From a virus: DNA of 44,147 nt. Where the stretch lies: positions 1 to 44,147 of the IMG/VR virus record IMGVR_UViG_3300027704_002498. One strand, given 5' to 3'. Position numbers and translations under genes: made by a program. The notes beneath the pieces are model-generated. The model was not told where the DNA came from. It saw only the letters and a list, made by a program, of their open reading frames with translations, and did not search any database. Below, piece after piece: positions 4,492-30,664 of the stretch (positions are counted from its first letter, which is position 1; the number at the start of each line of letters is the position of its first letter).

Positions 4492-4519
4492 AATGTTCGC
4501 TCCGAATATCATATAAACT

Positions 4520-6457: not shown

Positions 6458-6460
6458 AAT

Positions 6461-9400: not shown

Positions 9401-9709
9401 TTATTCCTTCTCTATTTTTACTTGTAAAGGAAAACCTCTACTTCTTGCCAATACAGTTACTTCAATGCCTTTTTGTTCAGCAATCTCATACGGTAATACG
9501 GCTACAACTGCAAACCCATCTTCATGAATTTTTAATGTTATGGCCTCAGCGTCTTCTGGATTGTAATCAAATATATCTAATAAGGTTTCTACAACAAATT
9601 CCATTGTTGTTAATTCGTCATTCATATAAATGACTTTGTAAAGTCCAGGTTCGTCAATTTTGACTTGTGTACCTGTTTGTACCTTTTCTTTTATTTCAGT
9701 GTCACTCAT
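9401..9709 (-). CDS. clpS: ClpS-like adaptor of the Clp protease
   Basis: ClpS binds the N-domain of ClpA/ClpC, delivers N-degron substrates and lowers degradation of ssrA-tagged proteins by ClpAP. The 102-residue protein keeps the whole core: YKVIYMNDELTTMEFVVETL, KIHEDGFAVVAVLPYEIAEQ and LARSRGFPL. Residues that form the N-degron pocket in bacterial ClpS are present (Asn30, Asp31, Met36, His62). The start ATG has AGAGG about six bases upstream. It is the first gene behind a perfect sigma70 promoter (9736-9764), so it is probably made early. No clpA is visible in the window; a host ClpA would be the partner. ClpX, also encoded here, does not normally use ClpS. Confidence 0.85.
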   Translation of the reverse strand: MSDTEIKEKVQTGTQVKIDEPGLYKVIYMNDELTTMEFVVETLLDIFDYNPEDAEAITLKIHEDGFAVVAVLPYEIAEQKGIEVTVLARSRGFPLQVKIEKE

Positions 9710-9735
9710 AATTACCTCTTTGTTAGTATGTTTAT

Positions 9736-9764
9736 ATTATAACTGATTTTATACCGTTTGTCAA
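9736..9764 (-). promoter_or_regulatory. Consensus sigma70 promoter for the clpS operon
   Basis: Minus-strand TTGACA (9764-9759), a 17-base spacer, then TATAAT (9741-9736): full consensus. It lies about 27 bases upstream of the clpS start and just downstream of the hsp20 terminator, so it begins a separate, probably early, transcription unit. Confidence 0.85.
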
Positions 9765-9765
9765 G

Positions 9766-9803
9766 AAAAAAGATAGGATTAATCATAAAACTAACCCTAT
9801 CTT
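9766..9803 (-). terminator. Rho-independent terminator after hsp20
   Basis: On the minus strand a 12-base-pair stem (AAGATAGGGTTA / TAATCCTATCTT, one G-U pair) with a ten-base loop is followed by a run of T. It lies directly between the hsp20 stop and the clpS promoter and isolates the two units. Confidence 0.85.
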
Positions 9804-9820
9804 CAATTGTTAACTATGAA

Positions 9821-10249
9821 TTATTTGATATTAATTGTTCTTGGCTTTTTAGCCTCTGGAACAATTTTCTCCAATGATACTTTTAGTAAGCCATCTTTTA
9901 ATTCCGCACCGTTAACTACAACATCTTCAGCAATAGTGAAAGATCTTTTGAATTGACGTTTTGAAATTCCTCTGTGTAATACACTTGGATCTTCGTCAGC
10001 GTCTTTTTCACTTTGAACTGAATTAACAGTTAAGTTATTATCAGCATATTTTACTTCAATGTCTTTTTTGCCAAAGCCGGCTAAAGCCATTTCGATATCA
10101 TATGTGAAGTCGCCTGTTTTTACGATATTGTATGGTGGAAAATTCACTTGAGGCATATCAGTAATGTGTTCAAAATGATTGAACATATCGTCGAATCCTA
10201 CTGTGAATGGTTTTAGTTGATTAAAGATAGATAGTCTTGCGTTTGTCAT
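9821..10249 (-). CDS. hsp20: Small heat-shock protein (Hsp20/IbpA family)
   Basis: 142 residues with an alpha-crystallin domain at about 35-135: YNIVKTGDFTYDIEMALAGF, the DIEVKYADNNLTV strand, GISKRQFKRSFTIAEDV and the GLLKVSLEK strand. The C-terminal INI matches the I-x-I motif used for oligomer assembly. It acts as an ATP-independent holdase; in marine T4-like phages it is thought to help fold virion proteins. The SD site AAGGAG is strong. It is a single-gene unit with a TATAAATA late box and a sigma70-like box upstream and a strong terminator downstream, suggesting high expression both early and late. Confidence 0.92.
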   Translation of the reverse strand: MTNARLSIFNQLKPFTVGFDDMFNHFEHITDMPQVNFPPYNIVKTGDFTYDIEMALAGFGKKDIEVKYADNNLTVNSVQSEKDADEDPSVLHRGISKRQFKRSFTIAEDVVVNGAELKDGLLKVSLEKIVPEAKKPRTINIK

Positions 10250-10308
10250 TGCTTTCTCCTTATATTAAAGCGAGTTAACGTTGTACCCGAACATTCGGCG
10301 TACAATAG

Positions 10309-10316
10309 TATTTATA
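10309..10316 (-). promoter_or_regulatory. T4-like late promoter TATAAATA before hsp20
   Basis: Exact minus-strand TATAAATA, 60 bases upstream of the hsp20 start. In T4-like phages this octamer is the whole late promoter, read by the phage late sigma and sliding clamp. Confidence 0.7.
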
Positions 10317-10328
10317 TTACTATACTAT

Positions 10329-10358
10329 ATTATATAAGCATTAATGGTAAAAAGTCAA
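10329..10358 (-). promoter_or_regulatory. Sigma70-like promoter before hsp20
   Basis: Minus-strand TTGACT (10358-10353), 18-base spacer, TATAAT (10334-10329). It lies upstream of the TATAAATA box, so hsp20 seems to have tandem early and late promoters. Confidence 0.6.
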
Positions 10359-10404
10359 GTCTATTTTGGATATTTTCGGGTAAATATAGTATCAGGAGAA
10401 TATA

Positions 10405-11169
10405 ATGGCATCAAACGGAATATCAACACTAACGGTAAATGGTATTGCTGACAAACCCGGAAGGCAAACAGCAAAACTAAACCTAGCACAAACTCGCAGA
10501 AAAGCAGGTGGTGATACTACCAAGCCTTACTACAGACCTCTTAATACATATAACATCGGTATGTTACATCAGATCATTGACTATCGAAACATAGAGGAAG
10601 GTAAAACATATACTATACTTTCAGACTTTGATCCGAGTAACTCGCCTTTAAATCGTGCACGACCATGGAAGGCGTGGGAGGCAGGTGTTCAAAGTTTATC
10701 GATGCAAGAGTATCATGGCATACAGGTTGGCCAGACATATACTATATTCGCAGACGTAACAGTCGGCGGTGGTGCTGGACCAATTACAGATTGGGCTTCA
10801 ATGGGAGCATCAAGTAACGATATAGGTACAGTATTCACAGCAACAGCAATGGTCCACCAAGGACCCGGAGCCATCGCCTATGTATATGAAGGATCAGCAC
10901 CAATGCTCAAATGGCATGAATTTTGGGCAGGCGGCGGCCAGTCTAACATTCCAGGTGGTACTGGTCATAATCCATCAGGATGGATGGACTCGAGCCTAGT
11001 AAGGACCAACATCACCTCAGGATATCCAGATAATACCAAGGGCTATGTAGGTCTAACATTTACTGCCGCATTTGAATCAGGATTTCCTACCCAAGACTCC
11101 AGAGTTACTGGTGTGGTGATGTGTGGTGATGACAGCGATACTCCAGTAGCAGGAAGACCTTGGACATAA
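10405..11169 (+). CDS. Unknown protein, isolated plus-strand gene
   Basis: 254 residues; I do not recognise the family. The protein has no signal peptide or membrane helix and is rich in Gly, Ser, Thr and aromatic residues, with two similar half-motifs, GKTYTILSDFDPSNS (about 66-80) and GQTYTIFADVTVGGG (about 111-125), as in a duplicated beta-sandwich strand. That composition suits a virion decoration or fibre protein. AGGAG lies six bases before the ATG. It is one of only two plus-strand genes in the window, transcribed away from hsp20 and ending at a symmetrical hairpin. No clear promoter consensus is visible on the plus strand upstream. Codon choice includes more C/G-ending codons than its neighbours, which could indicate separate acquisition. 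Confidence 0.7.
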   Translation: MASNGISTLTVNGIADKPGRQTAKLNLAQTRRKAGGDTTKPYYRPLNTYNIGMLHQIIDYRNIEEGKTYTILSDFDPSNSPLNRARPWKAWEAGVQSLSMQEYHGIQVGQTYTIFADVTVGGGAGPITDWASMGASSNDIGTVFTATAMVHQGPGAIAYVYEGSAPMLKWHEFWAGGGQSNIPGGTGHNPSGWMDSSLVRTNITSGYPDNTKGYVGLTFTAAFESGFPTQDSRVTGVVMCGDDSDTPVAGRPWT

Positions 11170-11172
11170 AAA

Positions 11173-11190
11173 TCCCCCAATTAAGGGGGA
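11173..11190. terminator. Bidirectional hairpin terminator between convergent genes
   Basis: TCCCCC-AATTAA-GGGGGA, flanked by A-rich and T-rich bases on both sides. On the minus strand it is followed by TTTTTA and on the plus strand by CTTT. It lies between the plus-strand gene ending at 11169 and the minus-strand gene ending at 11257. Confidence 0.75.
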
Positions 11191-11256
11191 CTTTGAATAG
11201 TGTGGGATTTTAGTTTTTAAAGAGCGTAAAAATCCCTGGTAAAGTTGCTCTGTTGA

Positions 11257-11589
11257 TTAAGAATAAATTGAATTATTCCCAATTTGGTCGCTATCTTCAA
11301 CTTCAATCATAGAAAGGATTGGTGAATTAAGCCATTGCTGTAATCCTGTACTATATTGGATTTTATCAGCAAATTTAAGTTTATCAACTGGCTTTTGAAA
11401 TGAACGCTCTAATGCTTTCATCTTAGTAGCCTGTTCTAGTGTAACTTTAACAATTTCACCGTCATCTGTTTTAACAGTATCTAACGGAATTGGATTCTCC
11501 TGTGAATCTTCAATTTTACCAAACTGAATAAACATTTTCTTTTGCTTATAACCCGGAGCCAAATCATCATTATCAATCTTCATACCCAT
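11257..11589 (-). CDS. Small conserved-looking phage protein, unknown
   Basis: 110 residues, soluble, acidic at both ends and basic in the middle. No domain is recognised. The start ATG has AGAGG five bases upstream, and a good sigma70 promoter (11622-11650) lies directly upstream, so the gene can be expressed alone and early. The bidirectional terminator follows it. Short, early, singly promoted genes of this kind in T4-like phages are often host-takeover proteins, but nothing in the sequence shows a target. Confidence 0.6.
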   Translation of the reverse strand: MGMKIDNDDLAPGYKQKKMFIQFGKIEDSQENPIPLDTVKTDDGEIVKVTLEQATKMKALERSFQKPVDKLKFADKIQYSTGLQQWLNSPILSMIEVEDSDQIGNNSIYS

Positions 11590-11621
11590 ATAGAACCTCT
11601 TTCTTTATTATGTAATATACT

Positions 11622-11650
11622 ATTATACACTCAATTGAACCAAAAGTCAA
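11622..11650 (-). promoter_or_regulatory. Sigma70 promoter for the 110-residue protein
   Basis: Minus-strand TTGACT (11650-11645), 17-base spacer, TATAAT (11627-11622); one mismatch from consensus. The -35 box overlaps the last codons of the gene upstream (stop at 11647). Confidence 0.75.
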
Positions 11651-12270
11651 CCTTTTTTCGTGGTTTTTTTGGAAATGAGTTTGAAAATAGCGTCATGACC
11701 AGCTTGTGTATATGTTAAATCATAGTTATAATGCTTGTTTGTGGCTATCAAATCGTTGATTTTAGCGTGTTTTTCTATATTCGCACCATGTATGTTACAC
11801 CAACGAGTAAACTGCTCAGATAATGAATGTTTATGAAAATATGGTGTCGTAGTACTCTTTAATAGTGTTTCGCCTACACACGGGCTTATTTGAGCCCACT
11901 CTGTGACGATTTTAGCGTCTTTTCTTATGCTTTTAATAGCATTATAAAACCCCATGTTATGCTCAATCATACTATCGGGTGTATGTGTCATTAGCAACAT
12001 ATCACGTCGTCTAGTAAAGTTAATATCTAAGTAATTATCGTTGCTCCAATTATACACAAAACTACCTATTTTTTGATGTACAAGATCAGGAAACATTACT
12101 ATAATATTTTTATGAGTTTTTTGGTGTTTAATGAATTCTTGGAATGAATCTTCGTTTGATTCTGTGACAATAACTGTTGGTTCTTCTTTATAATAGTCTG
12201 CTAACTGAAGAACCCAATGCCCTTCGCCGTGATTAGTTATACTAACTGTATCATTACCTATTACTAGCAT
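11647..12270 (-). CDS. SGNH-hydrolase-like protein with degenerate active site (tentative)
   Basis: 207 residues. The N-terminus LVIGNDTVSITNHGEGHWVL and the C-terminal stretch YDLTYTQAGHDAIFKL have the layout of an SGNH-fold protein, and it follows immediately after a clearer member of that fold. The usual nucleophile Ser and the D-x-x-H pair are not intact here (D-L-T-Y instead), so catalysis is doubtful. It overlaps the upstream gene by 17 bases. A duplicate that lost activity, or a partner subunit, are both possible; the fold assignment itself is weak. Confidence 0.4.
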   Translation of the reverse strand: MLVIGNDTVSITNHGEGHWVLQLADYYKEEPTVIVTESNEDSFQEFIKHQKTHKNIIVMFPDLVHQKIGSFVYNWSNDNYLDINFTRRRDMLLMTHTPDSMIEHNMGFYNAIKSIRKDAKIVTEWAQISPCVGETLLKSTTTPYFHKHSLSEQFTRWCNIHGANIEKHAKINDLIATNKHYNYDLTYTQAGHDAIFKLISKKTTKKG

Positions 12271-13045
12271 CTATCTTCTCTTTTACTAATTTAGCAAAGT
12301 CTTTATTAGTTTTTGGACCTGGGTGTTTCCTATCTGATCCAAACTCTTGTGTATTATTTAACAACTCTAAAATGCCTGTTTCTAACCAATGGGTTTTGTC
12401 AATTTTATTTGCTAACTGTTTTACATTTAGTAAAGGCCCGTCTTCTATTTCATTTAAAAAATCTAAAGGATGCCAATAGCCCCAATCACCCGGATACTTA
12501 AAATGTTTCGCATGGAGCCAATCTCCTCCATTTACAAACAGATAAGGTTGATTAATTTCTTTAAAATAAGTTTGTAGCACATAAGCATTCTTTATTAAAC
12601 TTAAAAAACTAGTGGCTGCATCTTCTAAAAGAACATAGTGCCTGGCACTACTATTATCTACCCAACTACCATGTTCCACACTAGCATAACTTGTTGGGCC
12701 ATTATCTACAGTCCAAAAATTTTGAGTTCCTGTAACTATAGTATGTGTTAAACAGTGGAAGTCTTCATCTAAATTACTGGCTTCTAATAATTGAATACTG
12801 TCTGCTGGCTTTTGAATACCTATTGTTTCCCAACGAGGTAGACCAGTCCATTGAATAATAGCTAGTTCAGGTTTGTGATGTTCGCAAAAACTCCATGCCC
12901 GTCTGGCTATAAAATCATTTGAACTTCCGCAAACACCGTGGTTGTACACTTTGGAAAAACCTAAATGATTAGTCCAACTATCTTTATAACTGTTTAGATA
13001 ATGAAAATGACTATTACTACAACCTGCTATGTAAACTGTTGCCAT
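12254..13045 (-). CDS. SGNH/GDSL-hydrolase-like protein
   Basis: 263 residues. The motifs are arranged as in SGNH hydrolases: block I VYIAGCSNSHFHY (Ser in G-C-S-N-S), block II GVCGSSNDFIARR (Gly and Asn), block III IQWTGLPRWE, and block V DRKHPGPKTNKDFA with the D-x-x-H pair. SGNH enzymes remove acyl or other ester groups from sugars, lipids or peptidoglycan. No signal peptide is present, so it would act inside the cell or in the virion. The position between the helicase/ClpX region and a short early gene gives no further clue. Confidence 0.55.
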   Translation of the reverse strand: MATVYIAGCSNSHFHYLNSYKDSWTNHLGFSKVYNHGVCGSSNDFIARRAWSFCEHHKPELAIIQWTGLPRWETIGIQKPADSIQLLEASNLDEDFHCLTHTIVTGTQNFWTVDNGPTSYASVEHGSWVDNSSARHYVLLEDAATSFLSLIKNAYVLQTYFKEINQPYLFVNGGDWLHAKHFKYPGDWGYWHPLDFLNEIEDGPLLNVKQLANKIDKTHWLETGILELLNNTQEFGSDRKHPGPKTNKDFAKLVKEKIDASNR

Positions 13046-13056
13046 TGCTGATCACC

Positions 13057-13353
13057 TTAGTACATTCTCTTTTTGGAAAATCCCCAGGCTGAGTCGAGCT
13101 CACGTTGTTTCTTCTTCCAACGGTTTACGCCGGCTTTTTTAGCAAGGCGTCGCTTCTCACTTGGTTTTGTATAAAACTGCCTGTCTCTTGCTTCTTGTAA
13201 AGTATTGTCTGCTTGAAGTCTTTTCTTCAGTATTCGCAATGCCTTTGTAACATCACCATTTCTAACTTCAATTGTTGTTCCGCCTGTTAAATCTTGTGCT
13301 CTTTTAAATTTTGGTGGCCTTTCATATCCACCCTGCTTTTTATTTACAAACAT
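13057..13353 (-). CDS. rpsU: Ribosomal protein bS21
   Basis: 98 residues, strongly basic. The segment TTIEVRNGDVTKALRILKKR followed by FYTKPSEKRRLAKKAGVNRW is the bS21 core, with an N-terminal extension of about 25 residues and a C-terminal extension. bS21 sits on the 30S platform beside the anti-SD end of 16S rRNA and helps start-site choice. Phage bS21 proteins can replace the host subunit. The start ATG overlaps the clpX stop (TAATG), and a perfect AGGAGG lies within the last clpX codons, so the two are translationally coupled with very strong initiation on bS21. Confidence 0.93.
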   Translation of the reverse strand: MFVNKKQGGYERPPKFKRAQDLTGGTTIEVRNGDVTKALRILKKRLQADNTLQEARDRQFYTKPSEKRRLAKKAGVNRWKKKQRELDSAWGFSKKRMY

Positions 13354-14513
13354 TAAACCTCCTGTACGTCTGATTCATTAATAATTACTTCTTTCCCTGT
13401 TAGTTCGTCTAACTCATAATAGTATTCAAGCAAGGTACTTTCTAATATACCCTTTAATGCTCTAGCCCCTATCTTATATTGTAACGCAAGGTCTACTATC
13501 TTGTCAAGAGCTTTCTCCGAAAATATCAGTTCAACCCCATCTAACTCAAAATAGAACCTAGTTTGATCTAATAGGTTGTTATCAACATCGGTTAATATCT
13601 GCTTTAACTCATCTTTCGATAATTCTTTTGTTTGTACTATTACCGGAAAACGGCCAACAAATTCAGGTATCATTCCGTAGTTGATTAATTCAGAAGTTAT
13701 TAATTTTTTTTCTTTAGCATTGGCACTATTAAATCCAATAACACTAGAACTACTTTCAGTCAATCCAACAAACGCTCCACTACCAATAAACAGTATTCTA
13801 CTAGTATCTACTTCGATCATTTCCTGTTGCGGGTGCTTGCGGCCACCCATAGGTGCTACCCTAACAATAGTTCCTTCTACTAATTTTAGTAAGGCTTGCT
13901 GTACACCTTCTCCAGAAACATCTCTTGTTATTGAAGCGTTTTCTCCTTTGCGGCCAATCTTATCTATTTCATCTAAAAATATAATACCCTGTTCAGCCCT
14001 TGCTACATTGTAATCCACTTTCATTAATAACGAACTAATAATACTTTCAACATCATCGCCTACGTAGCCGCTTTCTGTTAAACTTGTAGCATCAGCAATT
14101 ACAATAGGAACATCTAAAAATTTAGCTATCTGCTTAGCCATAAATGTTTTGCCACTTCCTGTAGGACCAATAATTAGTTGATTGTTCTTTTCGACAGTTC
14201 CATCTAAGTCAAACATTAACCGTTTGTAATGATTAACAACACCAACTGCCATATGCCGTTTAGCTCGATGCTGGCCCACCATATTATTATCTAAAAAAGA
14301 AACAATCTCTTTGGCTGTTTTTGGTTTGAGGCTTCGTGTGTTTGCTTTTGCTTTTTCATCTGTTAAAACTTTGCTACACAAGTCTATACATTCGTCACAG
14401 ATTCCCACTCCCTCAGCAACAATAATTTTATATACTTGGTCTTTATTTTTGCCGCAGAAGTTACACTCTGTAACTTGTAATATCTCATCTATGTTTGTTG
14501 AAAAATCAGTCAT
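13353..14513 (-). CDS. clpX: ClpX, ATPase subunit of the Clp protease
   Basis: A full ClpX of 386 residues (E. coli 424). The N-terminal zinc domain has Cys17, Cys20, Cys39 and Cys42. Walker A is GPTGSGKT (116-123), pore loop 1 is SGYVGDD, Walker B is IIFLDEIDKI, the RKH loop is GGRKHPQQE, and the sensor-2 segment is KIGARALKG. The IGF tripeptide that docks onto ClpP is present (SSVIGFNSA). ClpX recognises ssrA tags ending in Ala-Ala, unfolds the protein and feeds it to ClpP; no clpP is visible here, so host ClpP is the likely partner. The start is supported by AAAGG seven bases upstream. It overlaps the preceding gene and is coupled to rpsU. Confidence 0.95.
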   Translation of the reverse strand: MTDFSTNIDEILQVTECNFCGKNKDQVYKIIVAEGVGICDECIDLCSKVLTDEKAKANTRSLKPKTAKEIVSFLDNNMVGQHRAKRHMAVGVVNHYKRLMFDLDGTVEKNNQLIIGPTGSGKTFMAKQIAKFLDVPIVIADATSLTESGYVGDDVESIISSLLMKVDYNVARAEQGIIFLDEIDKIGRKGENASITRDVSGEGVQQALLKLVEGTIVRVAPMGGRKHPQQEMIEVDTSRILFIGSGAFVGLTESSSSVIGFNSANAKEKKLITSELINYGMIPEFVGRFPVIVQTKELSKDELKQILTDVDNNLLDQTRFYFELDGVELIFSEKALDKIVDLALQYKIGARALKGILESTLLEYYYELDELTGKEVIINESDVQEV

Positions 14514-14880
14514 TTGTTAACCTTTTCTTTAATATCCAGTCTACTGGAACTGTTAATTTTCTATTATTTAATGATTCATAATTAGCATCATGATGAATAT
14601 CATCACACCACCAAACATTAGGCAGTGACATTAAAAACCCCGTCACTATTTTATTTTCATACTCATTACTTACTATTGTTACAGTTGACCTATGGGCTGT
14701 ATTAATAATCCAATCTACTTTGCTATTGTGTTCGCCAATATGTAAACTGTAATCACCATATTTTGGTAACTCCTTTATGTACTGTTCAACTGTCCAATTA
14801 TCACAGCCTACTAAAAATACACTTTCAACTTTGCCAAACCAATAGTCCGGCTCTGTTACTATTGTTACGTTATTGTCCAA
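14506..14880 (-). CDS. Unknown small protein upstream of clpX
   Basis: 124 residues, no recognised domain. The sequence is mixed alpha/beta, with VESVFLVGCDNWTVEQYI near the start and a WWCDDIHHD cluster (Trp, Cys, Asp, His) near residue 92, which could bind a metal. Translation probably starts at TTG (14880), preceded by AAGGGA; no ATG is available nearby. It overlaps the coiled-coil reading frame upstream by 11 bases and clpX downstream by 8, so it belongs to the same operon. It may be a ClpX or ribosome partner, but only position suggests this. Confidence 0.55.
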   Translation of the reverse strand: MDNNVTIVTEPDYWFGKVESVFLVGCDNWTVEQYIKELPKYGDYSLHIGEHNSKVDWIINTAHRSTVTIVSNEYENKIVTGFLMSLPNVWWCDDIHHDANYESLNNRKLTVPVDWILKKRLTND

Positions 14881-15469
14881 GTACGTCCCTTCTAGTTAAA
14901 TATTTAGATACTGCTTCTTTTTCGTCTACACTTAAATCGTCCACGTCGTGTGTATTTCGTGCTAGTTGATCAACTAAATGCTTAATGTAATCAGATGTCA
15001 AGTACGTTGAAGTTCCTTCCTTGTCAACACTAATCCATTTATTTCCGTTCCATTTTTTAAGTTCATGTGGGTAAACATTTGTTAAAGTGTGTAGTTGGCC
15101 TTTGTGTGGGTCAACTGGTAAATGCTCACCAAATGATGCTGTTGCTCCGAGGTTTTCTTCCTCTTCTGTTATTGTGGCATTTTTATCAATAAGATCATAT
15201 TTTTGACTTATTCTCTCAATAGCTTGGTCCCTACTTGCTACTTGAGTTTGTAAGTTTACTTGCTCTTTTTGTAAGTTTATAATATCGCTGTTGAGTGAAT
15301 CGATTCCGGTAGTATCAGTAATAATCTTTTCAACTTCAACTTCAACTTCTTTGATTACATCAGGCTTGTTTACTAATTCAGTTACTTGTGATTTAAGTAA
15401 CACATTTTCTTCTTCTAGTTTAGCAATAGTCTTTGTTGCTATCTTAGTTAACTCGTCGACTTCGTCCTT
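14870..15469 (-). CDS. C-terminal coiled-coil segment, probably translated by -1 frameshift
   Basis: An open frame of 199 codons that overlaps the end of the 550-residue membrane protein and is shifted by -1 relative to it. The only candidate start in the frame is GTG at 15403, with no SD site and lying inside a coiled coil. Reading from the 9-A run at 15468-15476 instead continues the coiled coil of the upstream protein without a break (KKKDEVDELTKIATKTIAKL...). The first 60-70 residues are coiled coil, then a VEVEVEKIITDT strand, a second coil and a C-terminal domain (about 90-199) with KKWNGNKWISVDKEG and a helical end. I therefore read this as the tail of a 743-residue fusion. A separate short protein or a homopolymer sequencing error are the alternatives. 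Confidence 0.6.
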   Translation of the reverse strand, partial: KDEVDELTKIATKTIAKLEEENVLLKSQVTELVNKPDVIKEVEVEVEKIITDTTGIDSLNSDIINLQKEQVNLQTQVASRDQAIERISQKYDLIDKNATITEEEENLGATASFGEHLPVDPHKGQLHTLTNVYPHELKKWNGNKWISVDKEGTSTYLTSDYIKHLVDQLARNTHDVDDLSVDEKEAVSKYLTRRDVLGQ

Positions 15470-17100
15470 TTTTTTTGAAGAACGGAATACTCTTCTTGTA
15501 ACTTATCTTTCTTAATAGTTAGGTCGTCGTGCTGTTGTTGTAGAGCATTGAGCTCTGATTTGGTTAACTTGCCACCTGCTATAGAATTATCTAATTCTTC
15601 TTCCAGCCTCAGCAGGAGGTCAGTATGTTCTTGTATTTTCATTTCAAGTTCCCTCTCTCGTTTGTCTGCCCTTTTTTTTACAGTAGCATTATCTGTTGGT
15701 TTTGTTGGTTGTGGTCCTTTTAGTGGATGATATGGGATATGACCGTTTTGTTGCCTTGCCCAGTTCACCGTTTGAACACCTGCTAACACCAACATAATAG
15801 CAAGTGGGTCAAATACTATAACAATTATAATAATAACCCAACGAACAGCACGTTCAAGTATATCTTGAGTTGCTTCTTCGCCGTAAATAAATTCAGCAAT
15901 ATATTTAATTGGTCCTACTTCAGCTTCTAGTTTGCGATACTCTTTTTGTATGTCAAACTTTTCATCAATTAGTACATCAATCTTGTCATTTGCCGTTTTA
16001 ATCTTTATTAGTTGTTCGTCTATCAAAGCATCAGAGGCATCAGTTTTTCCTTGTCCTAATTGAGAACGTAGTCGTGTAATGACCTCGTTAGCATTGGTAA
16101 TTTCTGTTTCTGCTATGCCACGTAAACGTTTAATCTCGTCACGTGCGGTAGATATAGCACTATTATCTACACCAGTATTAGACTGTTGAGCTTCTGCTGT
16201 TTCTCTTAAACGTGTTTTTTCTTCATTTGCTTTAACGATAATGTAATTAAACTTGTTATCATTTTTAATCTTATCTATGGCCGCTAATACTTCTAAGCGT
16301 CTGTTTGTTAGTTCTAGTTTAAATCTAGCCAAAGCATTTCTAGTATTATAACCAAAGTTACCATCAGCATTAACACCAATTAGTGCTTGTAGTTCTTTAA
16401 TCTTATCTTGAGCAGGCCAAGTTTCTAACTTGTTTATCTTATCATCAATTGTTGCTATTTCATCTGTGTAAGGTTGTATTGTGTTTGCTAGTTTTTGTTC
16501 TTCTCTATCAATAATAGCATTTTGTTCATCTATAGCAGGTTGGATTCTTTCAAACGCTTCATTAACTCTCCCTAACTCGATATCAATGATAGCTTGTTGT
16601 TGATCAATAGCAGGTTGTTGTCTAGCATAAGCATTGTTAATACGTTCTTCTTCTTGTGATATTTGAATTTGTATTCTAGCATCAGTGTCATCATCTTGAT
16701 TTTCAGCATCTACTATTTTTAGTTCAGCTCTAGTAATAACAGTTTCAAACCGTTCAATCTCTGATTCAATTCTTACTAGTTGTGATTGATTTTCTTCGCT
16801 TTGTGATGTTTGTTCAATGTGTGCTTTAGATAAAAATCCAAAGATACCCATACTTGTTATAAACATTATAATTATAACTGCGGCCGCTAGATAATTTCTC
16901 ATCCATCTCTTGGCATCGAACCAGAATTGATGTAACCATACTGTTGTTACAATCTTACCTATTTCAAGTACTACTCCCATAATAATTACAGGAATAACAG
17001 CGGCCGCAAATATTGCCGTAAGTCCTATTATGCTGTAGTATGCCGCAACACCTGAAATTGATAGTGCTACTAATAAAATAAAAATTCCGAATATCATCAT
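15448..17100 (-). CDS. Membrane protein with long coiled coils and internal peptidoglycan-binding-like segment
   Basis: 550 residues in the zero frame. Three hydrophobic segments lie at about 3-22, 25-47 and 70-92, and another at about 420-445 (WVIIIIVIVFDPLAIMLVLA). Between them is a coiled coil with repeated units (QPAIDQQQAII, QPAIDEQNAII) broken at about 235-268 by IKELQALIGVNADGNFGYNT, which resembles a PG_binding_1 repeat. After the last membrane segment comes another coiled coil. It is therefore an inner-membrane protein with a large periplasmic or cytoplasmic rod, perhaps linking membrane and cell wall. It ends just after a 9-A run where ribosomes may slip into a further 199 codons. 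SD AAGG lies ten bases before the ATG. Function is unknown; it may be a host-envelope modifier. Confidence 0.7.
   Translation of the reverse strand: MMIFGIFILLVALSISGVAAYYSIIGLTAIFAAAVIPVIIMGVVLEIGKIVTTVWLHQFWFDAKRWMRNYLAAAVIIIMFITSMGIFGFLSKAHIEQTSQSEENQSQLVRIESEIERFETVITRAELKIVDAENQDDDTDARIQIQISQEEERINNAYARQQPAIDQQQAIIDIELGRVNEAFERIQPAIDEQNAIIDREEQKLANTIQPYTDEIATIDDKINKLETWPAQDKIKELQALIGVNADGNFGYNTRNALARFKLELTNRRLEVLAAIDKIKNDNKFNYIIVKANEEKTRLRETAEAQQSNTGVDNSAISTARDEIKRLRGIAETEITNANEVITRLRSQLGQGKTDASDALIDEQLIKIKTANDKIDVLIDEKFDIQKEYRKLEAEVGPIKYIAEFIYGEEATQDILERAVRWVIIIIVIVFDPLAIMLVLAGVQTVNWARQQNGHIPYHPLKGPQPTKPTDNATVKKRADKRERELEMKIQEHTDLLLRLEEELDNSIAGGKLTKSELNALQQQHDDLTIKKDKLQEEYSVLQKKRTKSTS
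15468..15477 (-). other. Candidate -1 frameshift site (run of nine A)
   Basis: The zero frame reads CAA AAA AAA AGG. Slipping back one base gives AAA AAG GAC and enters the overlapping frame that continues for 199 codons, while the zero frame stops 18 bases beyond the run. A run of nine A also allows polymerase slippage. I see no strong downstream hairpin. Confidence 0.55.
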
Positions 17101-17115
17101 GTATTTATTACCTTT

Positions 17116-19510: not shown

Positions 19511-19516
19511 AGTTAT

Positions 19517-19546
19517 ATTATACTAGATTAAGTAGGGTAATGTCAA
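19517..19546 (-). promoter_or_regulatory. Sigma70 promoter for the primase-helicase operon
   Basis: Minus-strand TTGACA (19546-19541), 18-base spacer, TATAAT (19522-19517). The -10 box is only 6 bases from the primase ATG, so the start of transcription would fall at or just past this ATG. The transcript may therefore be leaderless or use a later start. Confidence 0.7.
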
Positions 19547-19550
19547 CCTT

Positions 19551-20216
19551 TTATTTCGATTGTTTTAAATATATATAGATTTTTTTGAGTAATCGTTTGA
19601 TTACTGGATGAGTTGTGTCCCACTTAAAAAGAGCAAAGTAGGCTAACAAGTTTGGACTTAAAAAATGTCCAACTTCAGTTTTGAATTGTGCTGTTTTCTT
19701 GGCCATTCTGAGTAAGTCCACCGCACCTTCTTTGCCAACTTTACGTATGAATTCATCTCCAATATTCATAGCATATGCTTCAATCTCATCTGGACGACTC
19801 ATATATTCTCGTTCCATGCCTTTATCACTTACATATCCATCTTTACCTGGATGAAAATCCCTCTGCCTGTGCTGTTTCATATGTAATAGCTCGTGCTTCA
19901 TTACATCTTGTAAGTTATATAAGAAAAACTTTCTGCCTTCCTTTGTCCAAGTAAGTTGGTCGGTGTCTTCGTTGCTAAAAAACAAATCAATATGAATAGG
20001 TAGATCACCTTCTTCGTCTTTGTCAGGATCATAGTGAGCACTAATGTTCATCGATCCTTGATCGATTTTAATTGACTTATGTACATCAATTGTTATCATT
20101 GGAAAATGTTTCACAACAAGTTGCTTGATTTGAGTATATGATTGGGTTCCTCTAATCTCTTTGGCTAATGCTCTTAGCATTACTTGATCTGGTTCTGTGA
20201 TTTCAAACATTCTCAT
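19551..20216 (-). CDS. Zinc metalloprotease-like protein (HELLH)
   Basis: 221 residues with no signal peptide. The zinc motif HELLH lies in DVMKHELLHMKQHRQRD, followed about 30 residues later by MSRPDEIEAYAMNIG, whose Glu is well placed as third ligand; this layout is shared by several phage-encoded gluzincin-like proteins. A helical C-terminal part follows. Two ATGs are close together (20216 and 20210), neither with a strong SD. It follows the cell-wall hydrolase gene by 8 bases in the same operon. Possible roles are maturation of a phage protein or attack on a host protein. Confidence 0.7.
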   Translation of the reverse strand: MRMFEITEPDQVMLRALAKEIRGTQSYTQIKQLVVKHFPMITIDVHKSIKIDQGSMNISAHYDPDKDEEGDLPIHIDLFFSNEDTDQLTWTKEGRKFFLYNLQDVMKHELLHMKQHRQRDFHPGKDGYVSDKGMEREYMSRPDEIEAYAMNIGDEFIRKVGKEGAVDLLRMAKKTAQFKTEVGHFLSPNLLAYFALFKWDTTHPVIKRLLKKIYIYLKQSK

Positions 20217-20224
20217 AATAATAT

Positions 20225-20875
20225 TTATTTCATAAATGTGTGGTTGCCTAATATACCCACTAGTTCTTTAGTTTCTGCCCAACTTGGATATACTAGGTTG
20301 TGAGCATAATAAAATACAGCACCGTTAGTGTTATCTTTTATTGCCATTGTTCCTACTTCTAAAATGTATATTGCTACTTCTACTGATTCTCTCCATGCTC
20401 TAGCATTACCTTCAATAGTTTGTCCCGTTAATTCATAGTTGGCCCATATAACATCTTTATGACCATCACAGTACCAACTAAATTGACATCTGTACTTCTT
20501 AGGATAATATACTCTTTCTGAATCTGCTAAATCTTTATACTGTCTTGTTTTCCATGATTCTTTTACAGGACCGTCTGTAACAACATCACAATATGTATCA
20601 GGCCATCTAGAATCAATTACTCTGTTTCTAGTAACATTGCCTACGGCTGCCTTACCTGAAAATGCTTCTGCTCTTGCTTCAAAGTAAATATTCTCTGCTA
20701 AACACATTACTTCTGGATGGTCTTTATTTGCCACACCTTCTATTTCTAGTAATTGCCAAAGAATATGTTCTGCTTGAGAAGTAAATGTTGCGCCTGTTGT
20801 AGCGTGTGCTGGTTTGATTGCCCAAGCAATAAGAACAATTATTAAAATTAATAAGCCTCTACCCAAGTTAGCCAT
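20225..20875 (-). CDS. SleB-type cell-wall hydrolase (Hydrolase_2), probable endolysin
   Basis: 216 residues. The N-terminal hydrophobic segment GLLILIIVLIAWAIKPAHAT looks like a signal peptide or signal-anchor. The catalytic domain (about 50-216) starts MCLAENIYFEARAEAFSGKAAVGNVTRNR, with the catalytic Glu in YFEAR, and continues with CQFSWYCDGH and NGAVFYYAHNLVYPSWA, typical of SleB/CwlJ lytic transglycosylases. It cleaves peptidoglycan glycan strands, and export by its own N-terminus would not require a holin. A perfect sigma70 promoter is placed upstream, which is unexpected for a late lysis gene; it may act in envelope remodelling instead. Confidence 0.87.
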   Translation of the reverse strand: MANLGRGLLILIIVLIAWAIKPAHATTGATFTSQAEHILWQLLEIEGVANKDHPEVMCLAENIYFEARAEAFSGKAAVGNVTRNRVIDSRWPDTYCDVVTDGPVKESWKTRQYKDLADSERVYYPKKYRCQFSWYCDGHKDVIWANYELTGQTIEGNARAWRESVEVAIYILEVGTMAIKDNTNGAVFYYAHNLVYPSWAETKELVGILGNHTFMK

Positions 20876-20909
20876 AATATGCCTCTGTCTTTATTGTTTA
20901 TATTGTAAT

Positions 20910-20938
20910 ATTATAGCATATTTTGGCCAATTTGTCAA
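20910..20938 (-). promoter_or_regulatory. Consensus sigma70 promoter for the hydrolase-metalloprotease unit
   Basis: Minus-strand TTGACA (20938-20933), 17-base spacer, TATAAT (20915-20910): full consensus, 34 bases upstream of the hydrolase ATG. Confidence 0.85.
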
Positions 20939-20956
20939 CCAATTTTTAGGGTAGAT

Positions 20957-20976
20957 CTGTTGTAAAAATACAACAG
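20957..20976. other. Perfect 8-bp hairpin after the thermonuclease gene
   Basis: CTGTTGTA-AAAA-TACAACAG, starting two bases past the nuclease stop codon. It has no T run on the minus strand, so it may be a weak terminator or a 3'-end stabiliser. Confidence 0.5.
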
Positions 20977-20977
20977 T

Positions 20978-21406
20978 TTAGAGTGTTACTACACCCTCGT
21001 TAATTAAACGTGTTCTATTTTTCATGTGTTGAGCTTCAACATCTGCTTTAGCACCGCCAAAGTATGCTACAGCGTGTCCTTCTTTGATTAAAACTTGAGT
21101 AACTTTTACGCCACTATCTGTTTTAAAATCTCCCAAGACTCTGCCAAACTTACCTTTCATGTCTAGACCGTTCTTATCTACCTCAGTCATTAACACCGTA
21201 TGCTCTTTTAATAGCTCTGTTAATCTTTTCTTAGCCGCAAGGCCGAATTTCTTTTCTACTTTATCACGTGTTCTAGATTCTGGAGTATCAATGCCCATGA
21301 TTCTTACACGTTCATTTTTCATCCAAATCCCAAATCCTAAATCGATATCAACATCAACAGTATCACCGTCTACAATTTTAATTATTTTTGCTTTATATTC
21401 GTACAT
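20978..21406 (-). CDS. Staphylococcal-nuclease-like (SNase) thermonuclease
   Basis: 142 residues, one SNase (OB-fold) domain. IIKIVDGDTVDVDIDLGFG gives the calcium-binding Asp residues, RIMGIDTPESR the first catalytic Arg and Glu, and KFGRVLGD the second catalytic Arg. It cuts DNA and RNA at 5'-phosphate bonds. There is no signal peptide, so it probably acts inside the host, for example in nucleic-acid breakdown. It starts 3 bases after the amidinotransferase stop and is cotranscribed with it. Confidence 0.87.
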   Translation of the reverse strand: MYEYKAKIIKIVDGDTVDVDIDLGFGIWMKNERVRIMGIDTPESRTRDKVEKKFGLAAKKRLTELLKEHTVLMTEVDKNGLDMKGKFGRVLGDFKTDSGVKVTQVLIKEGHAVAYFGGAKADVEAQHMKNRTRLINEGVVTL

Positions 21407-21409
21407 TAT

Positions 21410-22450
21410 CTATTCTCTCCATAGTTCGCCGAAATTAAGATCTTCTCGTCTATTAAAAAGATCCTCAGGTTCACTTTTTCTGTTAATATCAAACGTAACA
21501 CAATGACTACCACCGTCCCAAAAATATTTGTGTCGCAAAGGACAATGTATTACTTCAATATCATTGTTATTTAACAGTTTAGTAACATCTTTATTTGTAT
21601 GACTTGTAATAACTGTTTCTGGATTAATATGTAACATATTAACTTCAAATGTAGTTTCTTGACTATAACCAATCCAATGTGTTAGGTACTGCTTAATAAA
21701 ATCTATTGCTTCTTGTTGCGGTTCGTTAACTAATTTAAAACTAAAATCTTCCCAAAGTCTATGGTAACGTTCTAAGTCATTTGGCATATAGTGAGGCAGT
21801 TTATGTATGTTCCAGCCGTGAAACGTATCCGAATATTGGTCTATTTCATAACGTGTTAATAACAGCCCCGGCTTAATAGGACACACGCTCGAGTCACTAT
21901 GGCCACCCATACTTGCTGTATGAATATTAACATCTAGTTCATGTGTGTCTCTATATTTTTTAATCCATTCAGTAAACGGTAAGTTATCTTTATTTTGTGT
22001 ATCTATTAACAAATCTTTGCCTAACCTAAAGACATCGCTGGCGCAAAAATAATCAAATAGTATAACGTCATCCTTATGATCGTGTAATGCTTCTTTACCG
22101 TAATTTTCCCATGCCCACTTGGCTCCAACAAATATTTTATCGTGCCAGCGTAACATGTGGTTTCTTACAGCAAATGGTTGACCTGGAAGTGTTTTACGTT
22201 CTGCTATTGTTTGCTCAGCATGAGTGAACCCTTCATTTTCCATATAGGTTTTAATATTAGGTCTTACAACCTCAACATCGTGAGAACGTAGAACTGAACA
22301 CATGTTTTCTAAATCTTCTTGTGTTTCTTCTGTTATCTGTGTGAGGCAATTTTTAATTTGGGTAGGGAGACCGTCGTAAACACTTGCCGGCAAAACATCT
22401 CCCACAAGTACCTTTGATAGTTCACCCCAACTGTGAAAACAATTATCCAT
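21410..22450 (-). CDS. Amidinotransferase-family enzyme (glycine amidinotransferase-like), copy 1
   Basis: 346 residues of the pentein fold. The catalytic Cys317 lies in WDGGSHCVTFDINRK, and the His motif is MGGHSDSSVCPIKPGL, as in glycine and inosamine-phosphate amidinotransferases, which move an amidino group from arginine to an amine acceptor. The acceptor cannot be predicted. The nearest relative in the window is the gene at 24809-26050, with the same motifs. Its ATG is 33 bases downstream of a strong terminator, and there is no obvious SD, so expression may depend on readthrough from the promoter at 22650. Confidence 0.82.
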   Translation of the reverse strand: MDNCFHSWGELSKVLVGDVLPASVYDGLPTQIKNCLTQITEETQEDLENMCSVLRSHDVEVVRPNIKTYMENEGFTHAEQTIAERKTLPGQPFAVRNHMLRWHDKIFVGAKWAWENYGKEALHDHKDDVILFDYFCASDVFRLGKDLLIDTQNKDNLPFTEWIKKYRDTHELDVNIHTASMGGHSDSSVCPIKPGLLLTRYEIDQYSDTFHGWNIHKLPHYMPNDLERYHRLWEDFSFKLVNEPQQEAIDFIKQYLTHWIGYSQETTFEVNMLHINPETVITSHTNKDVTKLLNNNDIEVIHCPLRHKYFWDGGSHCVTFDINRKSEPEDLFNRREDLNFGELWRE

Positions 22451-22482
22451 GCTAGTACTTATTTGGTTACGATACGTTAGTC

Positions 22483-22518
22483 AAAAAAATTGGACTTGTA
22501 CATAGCTACAAATCCAAT
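22483..22518 (-). terminator. Strong rho-independent terminator or attenuator
   Basis: Minus-strand stem of 12 base pairs (ATTGGATTTGTA / TACAAGTCCAAT, one G-U) with loop GCTATG, followed by seven T. It lies between the perfect sigma70 promoter at 22650 and the amidinotransferase start at 22450, so most transcripts should end about 165 bases after initiation. Confidence 0.85.
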
Positions 22519-22558
22519 TAGAAACTCTGTTGGTTGCCTTATCCTCATACTCTATTTC

Positions 22559-22580
22559 TATGTGCTAGAATATGTGCTAG
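22559..22580. repeat. Tandem 10-base direct repeat in the leader
   Basis: TATGTGCTAG at 22559-22568 and again at 22571-22580, separated by AA. On the RNA strand this gives two CUAGCACAUA copies. Confidence 0.6.
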
Positions 22581-22649
22581 TGGCTCTCATGTGTTGTTTT
22601 CATTATCTATTTCATATTGTACCTTATAAGGTTTTATAATAATTTTATT

Positions 22650-22678
22650 ATTATACTATATTTATTCGAAATTGTCAA
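22650..22678 (-). promoter_or_regulatory. Consensus sigma70 promoter upstream of the candidate small RNA
   Basis: Minus-strand TTGACA (22678-22673), 17-base spacer, TATAAT (22655-22650): full consensus. The -35 box overlaps the stop codon of the gene upstream. The spacer also contains AATAAATA, resembling a late box. Confidence 0.85.
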
Positions 22679-23433
22679 CCATTTTCTATATCTTGTATTA
22701 ACTTTTTATTTTCTACATGATACCATTTAATACAATTTATGACATCTTCATCTAGTTCTATTGGAGCAAATTTATAATAATCGTCTATTTCTTTAAAACA
22801 ACTAATGTCGCCTTCTATTAACTTATCATAGTCAAAAATTATATCAGCGTGTTCAACCTCTAAGTCTATCCATTCAAAAATTTCCACTTTTTGCTTTTGA
22901 GGTATTGGTAGTAATGCTCTAGCACCTAACTCATGCGGAGACGGGCCAGTAGTATACCAAATAGGCTTTTCCCTAACTTCCATATTTTGCTTGTCTCGTA
23001 ATCCAAAATTATCTTTCATTAATGATTTTACATCTCTTAAATTTCTACAAAAAAGTGCCGTGTCTTTATTTTTTGTTGTAATAGCAATAATTGGGCATCT
23101 TACACCTTTTACCTTTTTCATTGATTTGTTTAAGTTTGGGAATATTTGATGATCAAGTATAAAAGAATTTTTATCTTTGGGAATATTAAATGTTTCTAAG
23201 TATTGTTCTATTACAGTAGGATCATATTGTCCTTCTTTAATCCAGTCTTCTCCGTACTCTAAATCAATTTGTAGACGAGAGAAATCAGGCAACTGCCAAA
23301 GGGTTTCAGGGAAATGATATTCATTCCAATAACTATTGCTAACAGGTTTGTCTGCTAGTCCCCATCTCCAAAGCAAAAGCCTTAGAAAAAAATGGCCGCC
23401 CATTCCAGGTTGAAAAGAAAAGTATGCTATCAT
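22675..23433 (-). CDS. Unknown protein, weakly sulfotransferase-like
   Basis: 252 residues. The N-terminus AYFSFQPGMGGHFFLRLLLW resembles a phosphate-binding loop after a first strand, and IIFDYDKLIEGD near residue 210 is like the YEDL strand of sulfotransferase-fold proteins. The sequence in between does not show clear PAPS-binding residues, so the call is weak. It has no signal peptide or membrane helix. The ATG follows the porin terminator by about 15 bases and lacks an SD site, so expression is likely low or relies on readthrough. Kinase or host-interaction functions are equally possible. Confidence 0.4.
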   Translation of the reverse strand: MIAYFSFQPGMGGHFFLRLLLWRWGLADKPVSNSYWNEYHFPETLWQLPDFSRLQIDLEYGEDWIKEGQYDPTVIEQYLETFNIPKDKNSFILDHQIFPNLNKSMKKVKGVRCPIIAITTKNKDTALFCRNLRDVKSLMKDNFGLRDKQNMEVREKPIWYTTGPSPHELGARALLPIPQKQKVEIFEWIDLEVEHADIIFDYDKLIEGDISCFKEIDDYYKFAPIELDEDVINCIKWYHVENKKLIQDIENG

Positions 23434-23447
23434 ATTAATAATTAGCC

Positions 23448-23487
23448 ATAAAAAAAGATAGACCTCAAATTAATGAAGCCTACCTTT
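23448..23487 (-). terminator. Rho-independent terminator after the porin gene
   Basis: Minus-strand 14-base-pair stem (AAAGGTAGGCTTCA / TGAGGTCTATCTTT, three G-U pairs), loop TTAATT, followed by seven T. It ends the porin transcript. Confidence 0.85.
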
Positions 23488-23507
23488 AGTAATAACTTAC
23501 AAATAAC

Positions 23508-24416
23508 TTAGAACGTAAATTTAAGTCCTAGTGCCATTTGTGATGTATCTGTGCTTGATGCTAAAGTTAAGTCAGTTGACTGATATTCAACATAAGTGCT
23601 TAAAGAACTAGACAAGTCACGGCTAACACCAGCTGTGTAGTATTTTGCTGTGCCTTCTTTGTCCTGGAATCCAACTGATACTGTGTTACCAGCAAGAGTT
23701 GTAGAAGCTGTATATTCCATACCAGTTAAGTCAGCAGTACCAACTACATCTTTAACTGAATAAGTAGAAGCTAGTGTAATACCAGCTATGTCGATGCTTC
23801 CAGATAGTAAACGATATTTGATAACGTTAACTTTATCATTTACCATTCCGCCTGCTACTGATATTGGGCCTATGTCCATAGAAGCCGAAATGTCAGTCAC
23901 ATCCATACCTGTTTTTCCAGTTGCTCCGTCAATTACTGCTAGAGCATCTAAAGTTACAGGACCTACTGTGTTAGAATATTTTACTGTGTTAGAAGAACGA
24001 TCAGCATAATTAAATGTTGCGTTTCCACCATACACATTAAATATGTTTGTCTTACTTACACCAGCACCTGGATTTGTTTGTCTACCCATAGATACTGCAC
24101 CTACCGCACCTGCGTCTACACCAACATAAGCTAGTCTAGAATCAAATGTATCAGATCCTGCATCATCTGTATCAACACCAATTTCTAATTTACCAAAACC
24201 TGTTAAAGTAGCTGACTGGCCTTCGACTAATGTCTCAGAAAAATCAACGCCAATTTTAGATCCGTTGTCTTGTGCCTTCAAAACAGCTTTTCCAGTACTA
24301 TCATCATCATTGCTGACTTTGTAGTTTACTGAACCATAGAGGTTAACGTCTGCAAATGCCGAAGCACCTGTAAACATTAGGCCTAAAGCCATAGTGGCGA
24401 TTAGTATTTTTTTCAT
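23508..24416 (-). CDS. Gram-negative outer-membrane porin
   Basis: 302 residues. Signal peptide MKKILIATMALGLMFTGASA is followed by the mature start DVNLYGSVNYKV, alternating amphipathic beta strands (FGKLEIGVDT, VGAVSMGRQTNPG, VKYSNTVGPVTLDALAV) and the C-terminal LGLKFTF ending in Phe, the BAM insertion signal. These are features of general trimeric porins, most like those of beta/gammaproteobacteria. ATG at 24416 has AAGGA about seven bases upstream. It is bounded by the tmRNA hairpin and a strong terminator. A phage-borne porin could change host outer-membrane permeability or mask or replace the phage receptor. It probably came from a host. Confidence 0.88.
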   Translation of the reverse strand: MKKILIATMALGLMFTGASAFADVNLYGSVNYKVSNDDDSTGKAVLKAQDNGSKIGVDFSETLVEGQSATLTGFGKLEIGVDTDDAGSDTFDSRLAYVGVDAGAVGAVSMGRQTNPGAGVSKTNIFNVYGGNATFNYADRSSNTVKYSNTVGPVTLDALAVIDGATGKTGMDVTDISASMDIGPISVAGGMVNDKVNVIKYRLLSGSIDIAGITLASTYSVKDVVGTADLTGMEYTASTTLAGNTVSVGFQDKEGTAKYYTAGVSRDLSSSLSTYVEYQSTDLTLASSTDTSQMALGLKFTF

Positions 24417-24439
24417 ATCTTTTTCCTTTACATATATGT

Positions 24440-24467
24440 AAAGACACTCACCAAACAATGGTGAGTG
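24440..24467 (-). terminator. Hairpin ending the tmRNA transcript
   Basis: Perfect 9-base-pair stem CACTCACCA / TGGTGAGTG with loop TTGTT on the minus strand, followed by TCTTT. The T run is short, so it may be partial and let the tmRNA transcript continue into the porin gene, or act as a processing signal. Confidence 0.6.
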
Positions 24468-24469
24468 CC

Positions 24470-24745
24470 CTTTTGTAGATTTCTGTTGATAGGCATCTTC
24501 TAACCCCGAGCAACTATGCCGCTATGGCATAGTCCTCAAAAAACACATTATCTTTTGCGTTTATAGTTTTTGTTCGCGTTAATCCAGCTTACATCGGAGT
24601 GACTCCACTTTCCTAATAACTACCAGTCGATCCTATATCAACCCCATCATAAAAATATTCTCAACTTTAGGAACGAATATGCTTATGGTGGAGTTGCCGG
24701 GTACTGCCCCCGGGTCCTGATTAGTGTTTGAATTGCTTCAACATC
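24470..24745 (-). ncRNA. ssrA: Two-piece (circularly permuted) tmRNA
   Basis: tmRNA rescues stalled ribosomes and adds a degradation tag. The order is permuted. The acceptor piece comes first (about 24745-24686) and reads CUAAU, then T-arm CCGGG-GGCAGUA-CCCGG, acceptor strand CAACUCC, discriminator A and an encoded CCA ending at 24686. After a spacer of about 40 bases the coding piece begins at 24645 with GGGGTTGATATAGGATCGAC, the usual tmRNA 5' end. The two acceptor strands pair over 7 base pairs with G3-U, the alanine identity pair. AUUAG in the coding piece can pair with CUAAU to form helix P2. The tag frame is at 24558-24514. The exact 5' and 3' ends are estimates. A TATAAATA box lies directly upstream. 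The alphaproteobacterial-type split suggests acquisition from such a host. Confidence 0.9.
24514..24558 (-). other. tmRNA tag reading frame (AKDNVFFEDYAIAA)
   Basis: Resume codon GCA, 14 codons, then TAG. The end YAIAA matches the hydrophobic-Ala-Ala signal read by ClpX; DN near the start resembles alphaproteobacterial tags. The final codons form a hairpin, CTATGCC-ATAGC-GGCATAG, equivalent to P5. The exact resume codon is inferred: the alternative GCG frame upstream gives a basic tag with an early stop. Confidence 0.8.
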
Positions 24746-24752
24746 ACGTACA

Positions 24753-24760
24753 TATTTATA
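24753..24760 (-). promoter_or_regulatory. T4-like late promoter TATAAATA for the tmRNA
   Basis: Exact minus-strand TATAAATA. Transcription would start near 24745, just before the acceptor piece, so the tmRNA and perhaps the porin are late products. I found no recognisable riboswitch upstream. Confidence 0.65.
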
Positions 24761-24808
24761 ACATATTACGATATAAATGTCAAGAAAGTGATTGGAAAAA
24801 CACCCAGT

Positions 24809-30649: not shown

Positions 30650-30664
30650 TCTTTGTATATGTAA

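Follow-up and report, generated by a model that had tools for sequence, protein, structure and literature searches.

A conserved clpX–bS21–hsp20–clpS locus with a predicted ROSE-like RNA thermometer in large T4-like myophages

Does a phage that carries genes for the unfoldase ClpX, the adaptor ClpS, the small heat-shock protein Hsp20 and a transfer-messenger RNA (tmRNA) use them as one protein-degradation system and, if so, with whose protease? The question is raised by a 44,147-base IMG/VR virus fragment (record IMGVR_UViG_3300027704_002498), which is hereafter called the window. A preliminary description had placed all four features in one phage, and matches in Pfam, NCBIfam, Rfam and ARAGORN have confirmed each of them. 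The set that is conserved among phages has a different membership: clpX, hsp20 and clpS belong together with the gene for ribosomal protein bS21, which adjoins the 3′ end of clpX and was absent from the grouping of that description. Based on sequence comparison, we consider it probable (roughly 0.6) that clpX–bS21–hsp20–clpS in the window is a phage proteostasis locus, inherited in large aquatic T4-like myophages, in which a ROSE-like RNA thermometer would gate Hsp20 translation.

Gene order and origin of the locus

The viral collection was scanned separately with ClpX and ClpS alignments, and the neighbouring genes were then mapped. Loci anchored on ClpX were counted where 8 kb or more of sequence follows the gene, which gives 63 distinct phage ClpX genes. 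On the same strand, downstream, clpS is present in 60, hsp20 in 61 and bS21 in 50 of the 63 loci, and the order clpX–hsp20–clpS is found in all 60 that have clpS. Counted from ClpS, hsp20 lies upstream in 67 of 67 loci, clpX in 38 of 47 and bS21 in 39 of 47, while clpP occurs in the downstream flank (within 5 kb) of 24 of 43 loci. A DnaK gene is held in or overlaps 18 mapped loci, mostly inside the locus and often between bS21 and hsp20. The co-occurrence envisaged in the preliminary description is, therefore, real for ClpX, Hsp20 and ClpS, and does not extend to the tmRNA (see below); independent, scattered occurrence, which it had named as grounds for abandoning the idea, is not what these three genes display.

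The four-gene order is kept among phages with ClpX just 39–50% identical. In the cultured Pseudomonas phage PA5oct (ClpX 39% identical to that of the window), it reads clpX–bS21–two genes–hsp20–clpS; in cultured Atu_ph07, it reads clpX–IF3 ... hsp20–tk–clpS, spanning the start of the record, and Phosso retains the order more loosely. The gene found most constantly upstream of clpX, present in most loci, encodes a transmembrane coiled-coil protein in which a peptidoglycan-binding-like stretch can be discerned by eye at about residues 233–275; its structure model is all helical and of low confidence (pTM 0.38).

The window ClpX has zf-C4_ClpX and AAA_2 domains and passes both NCBIfam ClpX equivalog cut-offs (one score is given in Table 1; the other is 434.3 against 370.75). 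The preliminary description held that its zinc domain, pore loops and IGF ClpP-docking loop are intact, and this is borne out by the alignment to solved ClpX, in which the C4 zinc site, Walker A and B, the GYVG pore loop, the ITRDVSG pore-2 loop and the RKH and IGF loops are all present. In a quick maximum-likelihood tree, 99 of 102 phage rows, including the window, PA5oct and Phosso, fall into one clade (SH-aLRT 97), throughout which the docking loop is IGF or MGF. Two of the three rows outside this clade (L425 and L436) look like bacterial contigs and group with bacteria; the OR84-series matches have the same look and were ignored. By this comparison, phage ClpX has a near-single origin, which, together with the conserved gene order, suggests that the locus stems mainly from one old acquisition kept in order, so that the loci cannot be counted as so many separate events.

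The window ClpS scores 87.4 bits with the Pfam ClpS domain (gathering threshold 23) and stays below the NCBIfam ClpS equivalog cut-offs (at best, 80.6 against 149); hence, we treat it as a divergent ClpS-family protein and do not claim orthology to bacterial ClpS. Residue comparison on alignments indicates that both the N-degron pocket (N30, D31, T34, M36, V39, H62 and L95, as compared to Caulobacter ClpS) and the ClpA-contact residues are kept; E75 and K80 are invariant among 17 phage ClpS.

Might the locus have no joint function, clpX and clpS being separate host-derived genes that travel beside an old T4-like hsp20/bS21 neighbourhood? The phages HTVC008M and Mosig have a cobS-like AAA gene, bS21 and hsp20 in that order, with neither clpX nor clpS, and some phages carry hsp20–clpS without clpX; moreover, clpS comes with its own promoter-like sequence and terminator (Table 1). 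We nonetheless deem this explanation rather unlikely, given the persistence of the four-gene order at the ClpX divergence described above, PA5oct included, and the repeated presence of the functionally related clpP and dnaK beside the locus.

A ROSE-like element upstream of hsp20

The Hsp20 of the window has its nearest cultured relatives in the pelagimyophages Mosig and HTVC008M (58–60%). The leader of its gene consists of an upstream hairpin (hairpin 1) followed by ACUCGCUU, which is predicted to pair with the Shine–Dalgarno (SD) sequence AAGGAG around a bulged G; across relatives, the motif ACU(U/C)GCUU stands opposite AAGGAG. The signature of ROSE elements is U(U/C)GCU paired with the SD around a bulged G. 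Of the 133 distinct hsp20 leaders, 129 carry TYGCT at most 40 nt from the start, as against 19 of the 590 leaders that belong to seven other locus genes. The structure of the upstream hairpin is borne out by covariation (score 0.499 versus 0.245 when shuffled; 0 of 500 shuffles), with 91.6% of cells paired (76.1% when shuffled), two-sided changes in 48 cells (13.3 when shuffled) and both-sided changes in seven of its eight pairs.

A covariance model, R1, was built from 42 leaders, of which that of the window is one. In a large phage genome, it mostly finds one site or two. Applied to 15 cultured phages outside its training set, it matches directly upstream of hsp20 in 14: Melnitz, S-PM2, Mosig, PA5oct, HTVC115P, Atu_ph07, P-SSM4, C48C1, S-CAM8, S-CRM01, S-RIM44 and P-TIM40 are positive, HTVC008M and Phosso give weak matches (E 0.02–0.03), and S-B68 is the only one without a match at that position. 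Records with the element upstream of hsp20, which cultured cyanophages, pelagiphages and jumbo phages share, include L568, L569, L567, L570, L566, L573 and L140. Outside the training set, R1 also matches directly upstream of phage dnaK (Hsp70) genes (Table 1). A search of bacterial genomes returned no match among the part of the candidates that was scored. In the predicted folds, most leaders take a two-hairpin form with the SD hidden, and its accessibility rises on heating; the PA5oct leader is half open throughout.

Protease partners

Outside the part covered by the window, relatives encode a ClpP of their own, in many cases together with a ClpA-like protein and sometimes with DnaK. The nearest long relative, a sister phage of 204 kb (G001), is colinear with the window over 5.8–43.8 kb at roughly 74–88% DNA identity, and its ClpX is 83% identical to that of the window. 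It encodes ClpP at 6143–6760 with an intact Ser, His, Asp triad; as this gene lies outside the stretch that matches the window, the window phage probably has clpP as well. Among the 21 cassette records of at least 200 kb, some of which are near-copies (G035–G037), 19 encode ClpP and 16 a Clp_N (ClpA-like) protein, the latter being found in 21 of the 35 long records. PA5oct also encodes ClpP, a ClpA-like protein and FtsH. No ClpA-like protein was found in the sister phage, so that, in the lineage of the window, ClpS would need the ClpA of the host. SmpB was not found over cut-off in any of the 35 records, implying that the tmRNA would need host SmpB.

These results bear on the model put forward in the preliminary description, by which host ClpP is redirected, with ClpS keeping ClpAP on N-degrons and phage ClpX taking the proteins tagged by the phage tmRNA. 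A single phage does have every part of it, ClpX has conserved IGF and ssrA-binding loops, ClpS has conserved ClpA-contact residues and, in the sister phage, ClpS would indeed act on host ClpA. However, since a ClpP is encoded by the sister phage and by the majority of the other cassette phages, host ClpP is not the obvious partner; in addition, the tmRNA is unlinked to the locus and undetected in some complete cassette phages, and its tag looks host-like. The model appears quite improbable to us. Another role, suggested for phage ClpX of other jumbo phages (PMC7824862; PMC6102473), is that of a ClpP-free unfoldase that serves DNA replication or virion assembly of the phage; it would suit the location of the window clpX downstream of helicase and primase genes but is very improbable, given the conserved ClpP-docking loop of the phage clade and the frequency of phage ClpP.

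The tmRNA, a frequent companion

The tmRNA of the window is of the permuted, two-piece alphaproteobacterial type: it passes the gathering score of RF01849 (50), a tag frame and an encoded CCA are present, and an acceptor GGGGUUG/CAACUCC with a G3–U70 pair can be read from the sequence. The tag peptide is AKDNVFFEDYAIAA (ARAGORN) in the window and ANDNVFHEDFALAA in the sister phage. By its AIAA end, the window tag is of the ordinary alphaproteobacterial type; we see, therefore, no sign of a phage-private tag, an idea that was rejected. The permuted tmRNA of the pelagimyophage Melnitz (PMC9004378) is likewise a two-piece alphaproteobacterial-type molecule on a marine myophage; that of the window differs in its neighbourhood and in having no Rfam match to a glutamine riboswitch, a candidate that was thus dropped. 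It is adjoined by an outer-membrane porin-like gene (23508–24416, minus strand; weak OmpK35 match, E = 0.0011), which is kept in the two closest relatives.

The preliminary description counted the tmRNA as part of the set, which did not hold. A tmRNA is found in 19 of the 21 large cassette records (Rfam E ≤ 1e-3), 11 of them above gathering and several others backed by ARAGORN, with two records lacking it, and its position differs between genomes. PA5oct, Phosso and Atu_ph07 yield no RF00023 match over cut-off. Conversely, clpS is present in 2 of 10 records picked by their tmRNA, several of which are fragments; among 22 records picked by their helicase, five have both clpS and tmRNA (Fisher p = 0.052, uncorrected for kinship). 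On account of its varying place, the two records without it, the three cultured phages without a match and the scarcity of clpS in tmRNA-picked phages, we reject linkage to the cassette and regard the tmRNA as often accompanying the locus without belonging to it.

Promoter-like sequences and other features of the window

The promoter calls below and in Table 1 are consensus patterns, not measured promoters. The T4 late-promoter core, TATAAATA, has just three copies in the window, where shuffling predicts 7.5, in all instances on the coding strand upstream of a gene, namely, hsp20, the tmRNA and a virion-protein gene; upstream of hsp20, it occurs in 51 of 137 relatives (shuffled mean 4.7, maximum 10). 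The preliminary description had ClpS appearing early and the tmRNA late, which the promoter-like sequences bear out just in part. Early expression of clpS would fit its perfect 12/12 sigma-70-like promoter behind a terminator; the promoter-like sequence of the tmRNA, in which TATAAATA follows TTGACA-N17, is compatible with early and late transcription alike. A plus-strand open reading frame (ORF; 10405–11169) is inserted just upstream of the hsp20 promoter; it is absent from the sister phage, where the flanks are contiguous.

Elsewhere in the window, a minus-strand ORF (1868–2992) with six QxGxxN-type repeats, CsgA-like, adjoins csgG (2931–4025) and csgF (4027–4512) and has no Pfam curlin match; the literature describes marine phage curli loci as being without csgA/csgB (PMC9004378). 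Two paralogous amidinotransferase/arginine deiminase-like ORFs (21410–22450 and 24809–26050, minus strand) both match phrog_25854. The sister phage has a minus-strand ORF of 709 aa (29015–31141; L143 9015–11141) that, by eye, resembles a CHASE2 sensor joined to a class III nucleotide cyclase.

Table 1. Coordinates of the locus, its predicted regulatory elements and the tmRNA in the window, and of the R1 element upstream of dnaK in other records.
Feature	Positions	Strand	Evidence
clpS (N-degron adaptor for ClpA)	9401–9709	−	PF02617 E = 5.6e-25
clpS sigma-70-like promoter, TTGACA-N17-TATAAT, 12/12	9736–9764	−	consensus scan only
Intrinsic-terminator-like hairpin, hsp20/clpS gap	9769–9804	−	16-pair stem, T tail after
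hsp20 small heat-shock protein	9821–10249	−	PF00011 E = 1.3e-17; phrog_432 8e-45
ROSE-like RNA thermometer (predicted)	10247–10311	−	model R1 44.4 bits; RF02523 ROSE_3 25.5 bits (below gathering); hairpin 1 covariation; fold
T4-late-promoter-like TATAAATA 5′ of hsp20	10309–10316	−	sequence pattern
hsp20 sigma-70-like promoter, TTGACT-N18-TATAAT, 11/12	10329–10358	−	consensus only
bS21 ribosomal protein, locus gene 2	13057–13353	−	PF01165 3.8e-14; TIGR00030 above cut-off
clpX unfoldase	13353–14513	−	NCBIfam ClpX 457.8 bits vs. cut-off 359; motifs intact
Transmembrane + coiled-coil protein 5′ of clpX	15448–17100	−	conserved; predicted model all-helical
Permuted two-piece tmRNA, tag AKDNVFFEDYAIAA, outside locus	24472–24781	−	RF01849 103.4 bits, RF04321 103.9 bits; ARAGORN 24423–24779
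tmRNA promoter-like TTGACA-N17-TATAAATA	24753–24783	−	read from sequence; same architecture in sister G001
Element 5′ of dnaK, L317	7465–7527
Element 5′ of dnaK, L374	11475–11536
Element 5′ of dnaK, L412	11458–11527
Element 5′ of dnaK, L309	1735–1796
Element 5′ of dnaK, L348	7548–7609

Discussion

Phage ClpX, ClpS, ClpP, Hsp20, bS21 and tmRNA have already been reported one by one; we found no report of the conserved locus or of the thermometer. Like the window, the jumbo phages PA5oct/MIJ3, Atu_ph07, AP-J-162 and Phosso have genes for ClpX, ClpS and Hsp20; PA5oct and Phosso have bS21 too. Three papers list jumbo-phage Clp genes individually and, in the passages found, do not describe a shared locus, a single ClpX origin or a thermometer (PMC6102473; PMC7824862; PMC11242549); the MIJ3 paper does not mention Clp. 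In the open-access literature on phage and cyanophage thermometers, we found no description of a ROSE element or other RNA thermometer at phage hsp20. With the bacterial ROSE thermometers of small heat-shock genes (RF02523 ROSE_3), the window leader shares the position upstream of hsp20, the U(U/C)GCU motif, the predicted SD pairing with a bulged G and the upstream hairpin GAUGCCGA..UCGGGUC; it differs in lying on a phage genome behind a T4-late-like promoter, and the element also occurs upstream of phage dnaK. The fourU thermometer of SPbeta blyA (PMC10586365) is likewise an RNA thermometer that a (pro)phage gene carries, but it concerns an autolysin gene of a prophage, whereas the window-type element stands at heat-shock genes of lytic phages.

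In the explanation that we favour, the phage would supply its own ClpXP protease, assembled from ClpX and phage ClpP, while ClpS would direct N-degron degradation, by host ClpA in the lineage of the window and by phage ClpA in others. With Hsp20 as a holdase, the locus would, while virions are being produced, remove proteins that are misfolded or unwanted, or hold them. The ROSE-like thermometer would hide the hsp20 SD in the cool and open on warming, thereby gating Hsp20 translation. The tmRNA, probably a separate acquisition that would use host SmpB, would supply whatever ClpXP is present with ordinary AA-ended tags.

Several observations weigh against this proposal. The sampled loci are related, and ClpX is absent in relatives that retain hsp20–clpS (G011, G016 and G022). 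The clpP gene is not within the window, its presence being extrapolated from a sister about 80% identical, and an Aat-type N-degron maker was looked for in the phages and not found. As to the thermometer, the SD-pairing helix is conserved as a nearly invariant sequence, not through covarying pairs, and RNAalifold did not place it; for the window leader, the SD is predicted to open only a little up to 45 °C. The leader reaches E = 0.0016 with RF02523 ROSE_3 and stays under the gathering score of 43, for which reason we call the element ROSE-like only.

A broader reading, which we offer tentatively and at somewhat less than even odds, is that T4-like phages with a lytic life, among them cyanophages and pelagiphages in culture, possess a heat-shock regulon in which Hsp20, and DnaK where present, stand under a ROSE-type thermometer; the large members would add a phage Clp protease, and infection would proceed with its own temperature-gated protein quality control. 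If this is true, the thermometer would give a regulatory logic to Hsp20, a long-puzzling core gene of marine T4-like phages, and temperature would be a direct input to marine infection, testable in phages that are already in culture. Through a conserved Clp system with its own adaptor, large phages would also run their own regulated proteolysis, instead of merely borrowing that of the host.

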